This document shows positions 15,773 to 46,489 of a stretch of DNA of 64,000 nucleotides, piece after piece. Numbering within the stretch: position 1 is the first letter of the stretch; every line of letters begins with the position of its first letter. Origin of the DNA: Saprospiraceae bacterium. Its GTDB lineage: Bacteria; Bacteroidota; Bacteroidia; Chitinophagales; Saprospiraceae. The DNA lies in contig JAIPBL010000015.1 in the NCBI GenBank assembly GCA_021739645.1, positions 21,796 through 85,795 on the forward strand, written 5' to 3'. The translations under genes and the position numbers were made by a program. The notes beneath the pieces were generated by a model. It was not told the DNA's origin. It saw only the letters and a list, made by a program, of their open reading frames with translations, and did not search any database.

Positions 15773-16372
15773 CTATTTTTTTGTTGCCTCGGCATTGACA
15801 ACGCCTCCACTGATTTTTTCGCCGTCTTTGTACTCGTATTTCATGATGACCTCGCCTTTGTCGTTGTAAAAAATATTCTCGCCATCGAGCTTGTTATGCT
15901 TGTAGTTAAGCTCCTGCTGGACTACGTCCCTACCCTCGTAGTATTTTTTGAAATTGCCTTCTAAAATGCCCTCGACGAAGGTGCCCTCCTCCGTTTTTCG
16001 GATGTTTTTAAGCTTTGCAAAACGTCCATTCAGCACATTGTTGGTGTAACTGCACATGTGCTCCAAGTGGCCGTATTGTCCAAACTCGAACATCGGGCCG
16101 TTTGGCACCCCGTTCACATAGTTAGTAACAGATGCCGGCACGTCCCTGTCTTTGTGGTAAATGACCCACATGCCGTGCTTGTGGCCGTTGAGAATAGTAC
16201 CCTCCTCCTTGATTTTACCTTTCACATCGGACAAGGTCGCCCTTTTCATGTCGGAACCGGGGATGTCAACAATGACAAAATCTTCAAGGTCAAGGGCTTG
16301 TGAAGTGGCTGGTTTTTGCTGGCAAGCGGTCAGAAAACCAACGAAAAAAGTCAGGAGAATTAAGATGCGCAT
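15773..16372 (-). CDS. MORN-repeat (YwqK-like) lipoprotein
   Basis: 199 residues from the ATG at 16372, which begins MRILILLTFFVGFLTACQQ: a lipoprotein signal with a lipobox Cys. The body contains several MORN_2-like units (GTILNGHKHGMWVIYHKD, NYVNGVPNGPMFEFGQYG, LNGRFAKLKN, GEVIMKYEYKDGEKISG), the pattern of proteins annotated as YwqK family antitoxins. MORN_2 proteins of Bacteroidota are mostly uncharacterised, and no toxin partner is adjacent, so the antitoxin label should not be taken as function. It follows the TfoX-domain gene by 47 bp on the same strand. Confidence 0.75.
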   Translation of the reverse strand: MRILILLTFFVGFLTACQQKPATSQALDLEDFVIVDIPGSDMKRATLSDVKGKIKEEGTILNGHKHGMWVIYHKDRDVPASVTNYVNGVPNGPMFEFGQYGHLEHMCSYTNNVLNGRFAKLKNIRKTEEGTFVEGILEGNFKKYYEGRDVVQQELNYKHNKLDGENIFYNDKGEVIMKYEYKDGEKISGGVVNAEATKK

Positions 16373-41245: not shown

Positions 41246-41779
41246 TTACATCAGAATTGATGCTTCCTTCTTGATGGCCATTAACGCTGTGTTCAAAGAG
41301 TTGGCAGACTGACCTTCAATTTGATTCAGCAACACCGAGGCAAGCTCTTTGGAAGACCCTTTTGGGTCAACTTTTTCGTAAAGCCCGTTGATATCCATTA
41401 CGGTATTGTCCCTGGAAATTTTGATGATTTGCCATAATTGGTCCGATACATAAACCTGTTGGGTTATGTTGTACTCAAACTCCTGCTGGATTGCCAGCAG
41501 CATCGCCATACGCAATAGGGAATTGCTCTGCCCCTCTTCTCGAAGTCGGAGCATGAGACTTGGGATGGCTATTCTTTCACAAAAAAGCGACAACCGTTCG
41601 TATGCTTGCAATCGTGCGGGGATTGTTGTGTTGTTTTGATTTTGCCTAAATTCTAAGACTCTTAGCTGGTATTGCTTGTCAAGGTAGGTTTTCATTAGGT
41701 AGTAAACCGTGAGAAAAACAATCAGCGCAGGGACGGTGATTTTTATAATTTCCAGAAGGGCACTCAACCAATTTGACAT
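41246..41779 (-). CDS. Conserved hypothetical, single-TM protein
   Basis: 177 residues. One N-terminal membrane helix (LLEIIKITVPALIVFLTVYYLM), then a predominantly helical cytoplasmic part with RLQAYERLSLFCERI and QQEFEYNITQQVYVSDQLWQ. It looks like a protein conserved in Bacteroidota next to HesB/IscA genes, but I cannot name a function. It is divergent from the hesB gene, and both have good -7 boxes in the shared spacer. Confidence 0.75.
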   Translation of the reverse strand: MSNWLSALLEIIKITVPALIVFLTVYYLMKTYLDKQYQLRVLEFRQNQNNTTIPARLQAYERLSLFCERIAIPSLMLRLREEGQSNSLLRMAMLLAIQQEFEYNITQQVYVSDQLWQIIKISRDNTVMDINGLYEKVDPKGSSKELASVLLNQIEGQSANSLNTALMAIKKEASILM

Positions 41780-42333: not shown

Positions 42334-42365
42334 AAAAGCCCGACAGGTTCTCCGTCGGGCTTTTT
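42334..42365 (+). terminator. Intrinsic terminator after hesB/iscA
   Basis: Stem AAAAGCCCGAC / GTCGGGCTTTTT. The flanking A-tract also permits minus-strand termination. Confidence 0.85.
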
Positions 42366-42736: not shown

Positions 42737-45700
42737 CTACTCTTTCAATTTGTCCTCCAAAGAAATCTCGTCCTCCAAATGTTTGTCCGCTGCACCTTCA
42801 GCTACATCATGGTTTATGATTTTGCTGGCTAAAAGCCTAGCTTCCATATTGGGATTTCTCAGCCAATTCACCGACCAAAATGGCAAATAAACCATTCCAG
42901 CTTTCTCAATGGCGTCTCTTTGGCTTTTCTCCCAAAGCGGCGAGGTAAATGTCGTTCCTGAGAAGAACCCATCAGGGTGCAACACAACAGCTTTCCCAGC
43001 AATGCTTAATGGCTTAACAGTAATTGGAAAGTGAACTGAATCGGTTGAGACTTTTGTGGAAATGCGTTTCAAATCAATGAACGGCGATAGCGCCTGAATA
43101 ACTTCATTGGTGAAAATAGAAGGCGTTGCGCCGCTGCTCATATTTTTGCCAAGTGCCTCCATCGAAATCATTATCTGGGGCTTATTCCCGTTTTGGGTGG
43201 CTTCGGCCAACCTGATGAAATGTGCTAGCAGCCAAGTGCCTTCCTCCCATTTCTTACCTTCAAAACCCTGGATTTGCTCATCTGGAAATGAATGAATGAT
43301 GTGGTAGGCTTGCGCAGGTTTGTTCACCAACATCCGCAAATGACCAATTCCGGTTGGGGTGTTTAGGAAAACGAGCTTCTTCGACAACTCCCCTTTTAAG
43401 TTAACCAAACCAAAGGTACAGGACACAATAATAATGTCGAAGTGCTGGCCAAACAGCTCGTCGATATGAAAAACGCCCATGCCATTGCGTTCCAATTGCT
43501 GAATCTTCTCACTTCCAAGTACGTTTTGTTGCTTGAGTTTAAGTAGGTAATTGGCGATGAGGTCCCGTTGCTCAACAGTAAAGGTCACTATGCCTACCGA
43601 TGGGTAAATTCGTTGTGGCGTTTGCTTAACTTGATTCAAAAGCCGAATGATAGTTTGCGCTTCAGTGTCGTTCGTGCCTTCCAGTTCATGAAATCTACCT
43701 TCAACGTTTTCCACAAGGTAGCTCACCCGTTGATGTGGAAAATCTTGGTCTTCCTTAACTAGCCCAGAAATAGGTGTGGGCGGCTCGTAGCGATTGGAAA
43801 TTAATGTGGAGGGAACACCGTTTTCGAGGGCATATTGCAGTAGGCTGGTCTCGTTTCCGAAGCTGTCGTTACTGCCCATAATGACCAATTTATTCCCAAG
43901 CGTTGCAATGGCTGTCGCTGTCTCTACTGAAAACTTATTGGATTCATCAAAAATCACATAATCGAAATAGTGCTCACTTTTGGGTAACTCGTTGAGGGCC
44001 ACATGCGGCGTTACGAAGAGAATGGGCAAATACGCCGACACTGCATCAAAGCTGTTCTCAAGCACCTTTGACAGCGGGAGCGTCTCTGCTGCTTTTTGCC
44101 CCGATTTTTCGAAAATCAATTGAAAAGCCTGCTTGTTTTTCTTTTTTAAAGCCTTTACTTCTGACGCCTGTTTCTCTTGCCAAAGTCGAATTAATAGATT
44201 GAAAATCAGTGGCTTTAGCTGGTGCCATGCCTCGTTAAACTGCAAAATGGCCTCAGAGTCTTTGAGTAGGGAAGGTGAATGCATTTTGGTCAACAAGCTG
44301 TTGAAATACCAACTTTCAAAAGCTGCAACCCAATCACCAGGTTTAACTTTCACCAGCGCCCGCACTACTTTTTGGCCTAAAACACCCAACCCCAACCAAT
44401 TGGACTGCCAAGCATGGAATGGGTCGAAATCTCGCATGTTGAGTTGTGTGGCCTCCAGTTGCTCCATGATGCTTTCCAAATACTTTTGGCGCTGTGGAAT
44501 GGTTAGAGTCTTATTTTCAAGTAGTTTTTGGTAAAGACCCGATTCATTCAATTCCTCTATCAGCGTGTCCAAAGCAAACTCTAACATCGTTACCTGCTCT
44601 TTCACATCGAGGCTTGGGTGAGCAGTTTTGCTGTTCAAACGCATCACTTCTTCTTGCACAAGGCTGTCGGAGTTAGCGTACCATTGGCCCAGCACCCTTC
44701 TGAAATGGGCAAGATTTTCTGAAGTTTTCGGAATGTTTAGTCCGTCCTTGCAGGCGGTAAATTCGACATCAAAATAAGGGTTCTTCTCATACAATTTGAG
44801 AAATGCCCGATATCGCTTGCCGACTTCCGCTTGTGCGTCCTTTATCTTTTTCTTTTTTGATGAAAAGAATGATGGCCACTCAAATGAGCCTGCCCCAGCA
44901 TTCGCAAATCCATTCCCAAGCAGTGCCGTATGGTTTTGTATTTTCTCTAAAAGTCCTTTGGCACCACCTTCAAGTTGATTAAAATAGTCACGGTAATGCT
45001 CCTTGAGCCTAGCAGCGTAGTTGTCCGTTTGGCTAATGTATTCCCCCTGCAATTCATTGGTTTTTGCAGTGAAAAGCCGCAAGTTTGTTTCGACGAACTG
45101 CTGACTTTTCTTGGTTTCTGAATTGACAAAAATCTGGTCTTTGAGATTGCTTAGTGGGTGGGTCAGTGTTTTTACTGATTCAAAAAGCGGTTCGCTTCGC
45201 AAAATACCCGCCACCATTTGTTCATGTTCATTAGGCAAGAAGCTGAAGTCGGAAGCATTCAAGTGGCTCGCTAAGCGTTCCTTGCCCTCAATTCTGTTAC
45301 TGGCCAAGAACAAACCAACGGTCTCTGTCCAGTCTTTGTCTCCAAAGATTTTGCCCTTCACCGCTTTGTAAGATTGCTGTACAGCTGCTCGTGCCTGGAG
45401 GAATTTTGTCTTTTGGGCGTTGAAGGCATTTTGATTATGCACCACCTCTCTGCCTCCCCCGCTTGCTGTTGTGCGCAAAAGCTCAATTAGCGGCATTTTA
45501 TCACCCAACGCGTCGTCCAATAAAAAGTGATATTGAAAAATCCCTGCCTTGCTCAACATCTGTTGGGTGAATTTCAATGACTGAGTTCGCTCTGAAACAA
45601 CAAGGCATTTCTTCCCCTCAGAAAGTGCATTGATGAGTAAGTTCACCAATGTCTGAGCCTTGCCGAGTGCATCCTCACCTTCCACTACAGTGATTTTCTG

Positions 45701-46489
45701 TCGCGCAATAACTTCCAGTGCTGTAGTTTGTTCAGGGTCATCGGGCTGGTAGGCAAAAACGAAATTATCTTGCTCAAGTTCTTCTTTTGGCACAAAGACA
45801 TCTTCTGGTCGGGTGTCGTTTGGTGTCCAGCGGCTATTTTGCGGTGGATATAACGCCAATACACCTGACCAATGAAGCGCCCCATTCTGTGTGAAAGACC
45901 CAATTTCGTCAATGCCAGGTGCTGGAATAGGCTCTTCAGTCTGCCCGAAAATTTCAAAATTTAGCCGGGCGGCTATTTCATTGCAAAACTCGGTTAGTTG
46001 TTCCTGCTTTATTTTTTTTGAAAATGCCAAATCCTCTGCCTGCTGCTTTAAGTCAAGACCATATTTCTCTTTTAAATGGTCAAGAAGGCGATAGTTTGGA
46101 AGGATATGCCGTTGCTCCGAGTTTTTTATCACCCATGAATCCACACGAGTTTGGGCAGGGTCAAGTTGCATTTGCCAGATGAAAACTGGCGACACCACTA
46201 GGTCGCTGTTGAAAGTATCAATGACCAACGGAAAGCCGAAGCCGAATGATTTGGCACCAAAGATTTTTTCAAAATTTCGGGACTCAAAGTAGAGGTGCCG
46301 GAGCTTATCCGCCGCAAGCCCAACTACATTGACCTGTCGGGAAATCTTCCCAGTCAACATTTCATCCAAAAATACGGAGGAAAAAACCGGGGTCTCTTCG
46401 TCAACTGCACAGATATCAGCCCTATCCAAGTAGAATGGTAGGGAATTGTGATAAATGGAATAAATAGATGGTGATTGATTACTCCTCAT
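42737..46489 (-). CDS. Degenerate SF1 helicase/nuclease-like protein
   Basis: 1250 residues. The layout resembles large AAA_11/AAA_12 (Dna2/Nam7-type) SF1 helicases with a C-terminal Vsr/DUF559-like nuclease region, but every ATPase motif is altered. Walker A reads GEDALGKA (271-278, no Ser/Thr after Lys); Walker B reads DESN (848-851, usually DEAS); motif III reads GSNDSFG (872 on, usually GDxxQL); motif V reads DELFGQHFDIIIVS (1010-1023, usually QGxExDxIxxS); motif VI reads LRMLVNKPAQ (near 1052, usually LNVAxTRAR). A long helical insert separates the ATPase halves. The C-terminus keeps LHPDG and a FWSVNWLRNP segment like MTES_1575-type nucleases. It is probably non-catalytic as an ATPase. 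No partner gene is obvious. Confidence 0.75.
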   Translation of the reverse strand: MRSNQSPSIYSIYHNSLPFYLDRADICAVDEETPVFSSVFLDEMLTGKISRQVNVVGLAADKLRHLYFESRNFEKIFGAKSFGFGFPLVIDTFNSDLVVSPVFIWQMQLDPAQTRVDSWVIKNSEQRHILPNYRLLDHLKEKYGLDLKQQAEDLAFSKKIKQEQLTEFCNEIAARLNFEIFGQTEEPIPAPGIDEIGSFTQNGALHWSGVLALYPPQNSRWTPNDTRPEDVFVPKEELEQDNFVFAYQPDDPEQTTALEVIARQKITVVEGEDALGKAQTLVNLLINALSEGKKCLVVSERTQSLKFTQQMLSKAGIFQYHFLLDDALGDKMPLIELLRTTASGGGREVVHNQNAFNAQKTKFLQARAAVQQSYKAVKGKIFGDKDWTETVGLFLASNRIEGKERLASHLNASDFSFLPNEHEQMVAGILRSEPLFESVKTLTHPLSNLKDQIFVNSETKKSQQFVETNLRLFTAKTNELQGEYISQTDNYAARLKEHYRDYFNQLEGGAKGLLEKIQNHTALLGNGFANAGAGSFEWPSFFSSKKKKIKDAQAEVGKRYRAFLKLYEKNPYFDVEFTACKDGLNIPKTSENLAHFRRVLGQWYANSDSLVQEEVMRLNSKTAHPSLDVKEQVTMLEFALDTLIEELNESGLYQKLLENKTLTIPQRQKYLESIMEQLEATQLNMRDFDPFHAWQSNWLGLGVLGQKVVRALVKVKPGDWVAAFESWYFNSLLTKMHSPSLLKDSEAILQFNEAWHQLKPLIFNLLIRLWQEKQASEVKALKKKNKQAFQLIFEKSGQKAAETLPLSKVLENSFDAVSAYLPILFVTPHVALNELPKSEHYFDYVIFDESNKFSVETATAIATLGNKLVIMGSNDSFGNETSLLQYALENGVPSTLISNRYEPPTPISGLVKEDQDFPHQRVSYLVENVEGRFHELEGTNDTEAQTIIRLLNQVKQTPQRIYPSVGIVTFTVEQRDLIANYLLKLKQQNVLGSEKIQQLERNGMGVFHIDELFGQHFDIIIVSCTFGLVNLKGELSKKLVFLNTPTGIGHLRMLVNKPAQAYHIIHSFPDEQIQGFEGKKWEEGTWLLAHFIRLAEATQNGNKPQIMISMEALGKNMSSGATPSIFTNEVIQALSPFIDLKRISTKVSTDSVHFPITVKPLSIAGKAVVLHPDGFFSGTTFTSPLWEKSQRDAIEKAGMVYLPFWSVNWLRNPNMEARLLASKIINHDVAEGAADKHLEDEISLEDKLKE

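Follow-up and report, generated by a model that had tools for sequence, protein, structure and literature searches.

The closest described systems are the anti-phage helicases ProA and Hhe and the PADLOC candidate PDC-S37, which have the same SF1 core with a helical insert, the same DUF4011-like N-terminus and the same MTES_1575-like C-terminus as the protein considered here. A literature search retrieved nothing on PDC-S37, no account of a comparable family in Saprospiraceae and no paper joining ProA and DUF4011. Helicase folds which have lost their activity are also on record. Indeed, in RecC and AddB an inactivated SF1 fold serves as a nucleic-acid scanner (PMC4824097), and the PriA protein of Deinococcus radiodurans is a bacterial pseudohelicase which binds DNA and neither hydrolyses ATP nor unwinds (PMC4504706).

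Architecture and motif states of the window protein

The gene under study lies in the window, i.e. the whole stretch of 64,000 nucleotides that was analysed, and its frame is uninterrupted, running on the minus strand from an ATG at 46489 to a stop ending at 42737 and encoding 1250 residues; the genome has one copy. A plus-strand reading of the same interval was rejected, as it contains 56 stops. The parts of the gene are as follows, the domain boundaries being approximate.

42737..46489, minus strand: pseudohelicase gene, 1250 codons plus stop
45770..46489, minus strand: N-terminal domain (residues 1-240), a DUF4011-like region in relatives, absent in short forms
45656..45679, minus strand: GEDALGKA in place of Walker A (residues 271-278), which retains the Gly and Lys but has no Ser/Thr
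44270..45379, minus strand: insert in RecA1 that forms a helical stalk (residues 371-740), the best-retained part of the family in long and short forms
43937..43948, minus strand: Walker B, DESN (residues 848-851), with Asp and Glu both present
43856..43876, minus strand: motif III remnant GSNDSFG (residues 872-878)
43154..43699, minus strand: second RecA domain, RecA2 (residues 931-1112), under the tightest constraint in the genus and deleted in several other lineages
43556..43570, minus strand: motif IV QRDLI (residues 974-978), Arg975 invariant
43436..43453, minus strand: FGQHFD at the motif V position (residues 1013-1018), the Glu being gone throughout the eroded clade
43313..43327, minus strand: VNKPA at the motif VI position (residues 1055-1059), with an invariant Lys in place of the Arg
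42800..43153, minus strand: MTES_1575/Vsr-like domain at the C-terminus (residues 1113-1230), which has lost its nuclease motif
42334..42364, minus strand: terminator-like hairpin 3' of the gene, with a 13-pair stem and a T-rich tail, a pattern match only

The protein thus comprises an N-terminal domain, a RecA1 domain with a long helical insert, RecA2 and a C-terminal MTES_1575-like domain. It is matched in part by Pfam AAA_12 (1.2e-5), by PADLOC PDC-S37 (2.9e-29) and by the NCBIfam models of ProA (4e-26) and Hhe (5e-23), the latter two with 90.8 and 80.5 bits that fall short of the respective cut-offs of 1500 and 2000. Searching the PDB with the single window protein (phmmer) gave chance matches only and a family profile was needed, which matched UPF1 at 5.8e-14. 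An AlphaFold2 model of residues 41-1238, built from a 36-sequence alignment, has a mean pLDDT of 87.2 and a pTM of 0.74; the top solved structures in a fold search of this model were UPF1, SETX, SEN1, DNA2 and IGHMBP2 (E from 2.6e-7), with UPF1, DNA2 and SEN1 leading at a probability of 1.00 and AddAB lower in the list. Model, fold search and profile place the protein within SF1 by fold and descent, with an Upf1-like arrangement of two RecA domains.

Comparison with intact relatives evidences the changes in the motifs: Walker A GPPGTGKS became GEDALGKA, where GxxxxGK is kept and the Ser/Thr is Ala, motif III GDxxQMPP became GSNDSFG, motif V QGDERD became FGQHFD, and motif VI ITRAK became VNKPA. 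The nuclease motif ECDGxxYH reads HPDGFFSG, which is not that of a Vsr-like nuclease. Among 10 genus-level sequences K277, R975 and K1057 are invariant, and motifs V and VI are conserved in their altered state (GQxFD and Lys1057). Several congeners have a canonical Walker A GKT; a sublineage of the genus (L003, L044) has no Walker A at all (EELQNGAHR). The first-pass annotation had rightly described a 1250-codon open frame at exactly these positions, leaving the strand unstated, an SF1 fold, now supported by profiles, model and fold search and seen to be of the DUF4011/Hhe/ProA kind, and an MTES_1575-like C-terminal domain, now seen without its nuclease motif. Its claim of key-residue loss in every ATPase motif was too strong: the protein does lack the complete motifs I-VI of an active SF1 enzyme, with III, V and VI changed and the Walker A Ser/Thr lost, but the Walker A Gly-Lys, the Walker B Asp and Glu and the motif IV Arg persist.

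Distribution, order of motif loss and genomic context

Of the named records, the closest is a protein with 95% identity from a Saprospirales metagenome assembly. Within the window's bacterial family the protein finds a match at E <= 1e-3 in 224 of 398 genomes; the family profile lifts this number to 354, and many of the added matches are weak (E about 1e-4 to 1e-12) and were left out of the orthologue count, because generic P-loop helicases would give such matches. A match is present in each of the 14 genomes of the genus, in one of them only in part, and intact relatives occur in sister families (11/13 and 11/20 genomes).

Motif states were compared in an alignment of 102 homologues. The full set of SF1 motifs is present in all 20 complete outgroup proteins (20/20); among the 71 full-length members of the eroded clade no protein has the full set. 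None of the 71 has the motif V Glu or the MPP of motif III, which is best explained by a single loss at the base of this clade. The remaining catalytic residues were lost repeatedly, at least 9 times for Walker A GK[ST], at least 21 times for Walker B and at least 20 times for the motif VI Arg, as counted under a loss-only scheme on a FastTree tree and depending on its poorly resolved parts. A loose form of the nuclease motif is found in one of the 71 proteins. In a tree computed without the motif columns, intact and eroded proteins are separated by a branch with an SH-aLRT of 100 and a length of 0.69, FastTree support for the eroded clade being only 0.74; synteny and taxonomic spread are what suggests that the eroded forms have descended vertically. 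Every tested motif except V and the MPP of III is kept in g137, L066, L074 and L078, and therefore ATP binding, even hydrolysis, may survive there. One assembly (G255, estimated contamination 5%) holds both an eroded form of 1018 aa (L118) and an intact one of 1351 aa (L119).

Many long and short forms have common neighbours, namely an upstream co-directional MORN-repeat lipoprotein and a divergent PAS-AraC regulator, which are possible functional partners. This pair adjoins the gene in many genera (L063, L076, L089-L092, L098 and others), and the linkage is broken in the window's closest relatives; in the window genome a MORN lipoprotein homologue is encoded at 15791-16333 (minus strand), about 26 kb from the pseudohelicase gene. 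A PAS-AraC neighbour was also sought in the g5 genomes lacking a match, which returned generic AraC domains only. The neighbours in the window are DnaA, an iron-sulphur biosynthesis protein, a DUF7935 protein, and glutathione-peroxidase-like and dihydrolipoamide-dehydrogenase-like proteins, of which DnaA and the latter two were named by eye from sequence. The DUF7935 protein (41246-41779, minus strand) lies between dnaA and the iron-sulphur gene and is conserved in several genomes of the genus.

Running PADLOC on ten flanking proteins revealed no defence neighbours, the sole match being a weak one of DnaA to TRIP13. A distinct picture resulted for two intact relatives: L084, which scores 1.6e-142 with PDC-S37, 8.8e-139 with ProA and 5.6e-95 with Hhe, adjoins HerA, HNH, PDC-S02 and an RmuC-like match, and L085 adjoins a type I restriction-modification set. 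The other intact loci whose neighbours were, like those of these two, partly scanned gave no defence match or one weak one. The L084 helicase-nuclease (L084:5832-10205) also has a weak terminal match to the GreA/GreB C-terminal domain (E 4e-4, below the Pfam cut-off). Scoring neighbours for defence genes, as had been proposed, thus gave a positive answer for two intact relatives and a negative one for the window gene. The suggestion that the latter is itself a defence system is not supported, the gene being a single copy without defence neighbours that is present in all searched genomes of the genus and has its relatives at a conserved housekeeping locus. As the defence link is seen in only two of the partly scanned intact loci, a defence-type ancestor is something that we infer.

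The residues that persist could also be taken to mean that ATP is still bound and that the protein undergoes a change of shape but no translocation, acting as a nucleotide-dependent switch or sensor, maybe still in defence or in a DNA-damage response. Lys277, the Walker B Asp-Glu, Arg975 and Lys1057 would be in agreement with this, as would their invariance (Lys277, Arg975, Lys1057) in the genus-level sequences, the congeners with GKT, the Walker A Lys kept in 61 of the 71 eroded-clade proteins and the intact relatives that match defence families, two of them in defence islands. However, the window protein has no Walker A Ser/Thr, the gene persists through the repeated losses of GK[ST], RecA2 is lost in short forms and the window gene has no defence neighbours. 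We thus regard such a switch as unlikely, albeit the strongest of the alternatives.

Truncated forms and selection

In short proteins, of about 710-840 residues, the stalk and the C-terminus have been retained. Those in g17 and in a third group are without the N-domain and most of RecA2, whereas forms of about 1015 residues have kept the N-domain and lack RecA2. Overall, RecA2 is absent or mostly absent in g17, in the third group, in L147 and in the forms of about 1015 aa, and therefore such forms cannot be two-domain motors. In the g5 short forms the remainder outside stalk and C-terminus aligns poorly, and a fold search of a model of these forms against the PDB yielded helical look-alikes but nothing at E <= 0.001. 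In a tree of the shared columns the short forms fall into three to four separate clades, one of which is on a long branch and of unsure placement.

The stalk and the C-terminal domain are the sole parts present in all forms, and invariant columns are located in the stalk. Both observations would suit a protein-protein scaffold made of these two parts, with RecA domains that are purely structural and no nucleic-acid role at all. However, no segment is under tighter constraint than RecA2 within the window's genus: dN/dS between the window protein and its 95% identical relative is 0.047 overall and 0.020 in the RecA2 segment, which renders a scaffold of this sort improbable. Comparable values are found for other eroded pairs from another genus (0.025-0.048), the short forms give about 0.114-0.117 and an intact control 0.116; larger distances saturate dS, and several pairs gave no value.

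A helicase fold is thus kept under selection with its catalytic motifs lost, as in a pseudohelicase. The coordinated catalytic loss in an intact frame that the first-pass annotation had described is observed, as are the sharing of the changes by orthologues and the purifying selection, for both of which it had proposed tests, and a lone decayed copy is ruled out by the congeners with the same changes and by dN/dS. That the gene is decaying toward loss, or that its changes are an alignment artefact, is very improbable, as, in spite of the many catalytic residues gone and the several truncated lineages, dN/dS is low, the frames are open, the changes are uniform in the genus and all its genomes retain the gene.

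Proposed mechanism and comparison with known systems

The reading that we favour, and hold to be rather probable from the analysis as a whole, is that the window protein is a pseudohelicase derived from a defence-type helicase-nuclease and is now a non-unwinding, nucleic-acid-binding scaffold. The motor has been eroded across a whole bacterial family, yet selection keeps the protein nearly unchanged, and it probably has a role other than that of a motor, as yet undescribed. In the ancestor of the bacterial family a helicase-nuclease like PDC-S37, ProA and Hhe, of SF1 (Upf1/Dna2-like), would have become fixed, its motor would have been uncoupled once when motif V and some of motif III were lost, the remaining catalytic residues would then have eroded repeatedly, and the protein would have been kept for work other than unwinding. 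Most likely the old SF1 groove binds single-stranded nucleic acid, as the constrained RecA2 and the motif IV Arg suggest, and partner proteins are held by the stalk together with the dead nuclease domain; nucleic-acid binding, partner binding and the absence of ATPase activity are all properties that we infer. Lineages without RecA2 cannot have a full SF1 groove, which counts against nucleic-acid binding there. More tentatively, and with less than even confidence, a defence-type helicase-nuclease may have been domesticated in this one family into a core protein whose working part is the stalk with the dead nuclease, parallel decay having followed the uncoupling of the motor and one RecA domain having been discarded several times as the gene was kept.

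Among the pseudohelicases on record, few are accompanied by a dense series of intact, partly eroded and truncated forms, several of them at one locus. With such a series one could test directly which functions an SF1 helicase can still perform once its motor is gone, and how an enzyme of the immune type turns into a housekeeping protein. The case also cautions that a defence profile may match a core gene that is catalytically dead.

In respect to PDC-S37, ProA and Hhe, the window protein differs in lying far below the NCBIfam cut-offs, in its changed motifs III, V and VI, in its dead nuclease motif and in its housekeeping neighbours. PriA is an SF2 protein, and RecC also has a dead nuclease domain. 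The D. radiodurans PriA resembles the present case in the lineage-wide motif loss of a retained bacterial helicase, and differs in having a known role in replication restart; the abstract of that source reports neither a stepwise erosion series nor domain deletion (PMC4504706). With RecC and AddB the window protein has in common an SF1 fold without most of its motifs, co-opted to a non-motor role (PMC4824097). However, these are subunits beside an active SF1A motor, whereas the window protein, with no known partner, is Upf1-like and has a long stalk.
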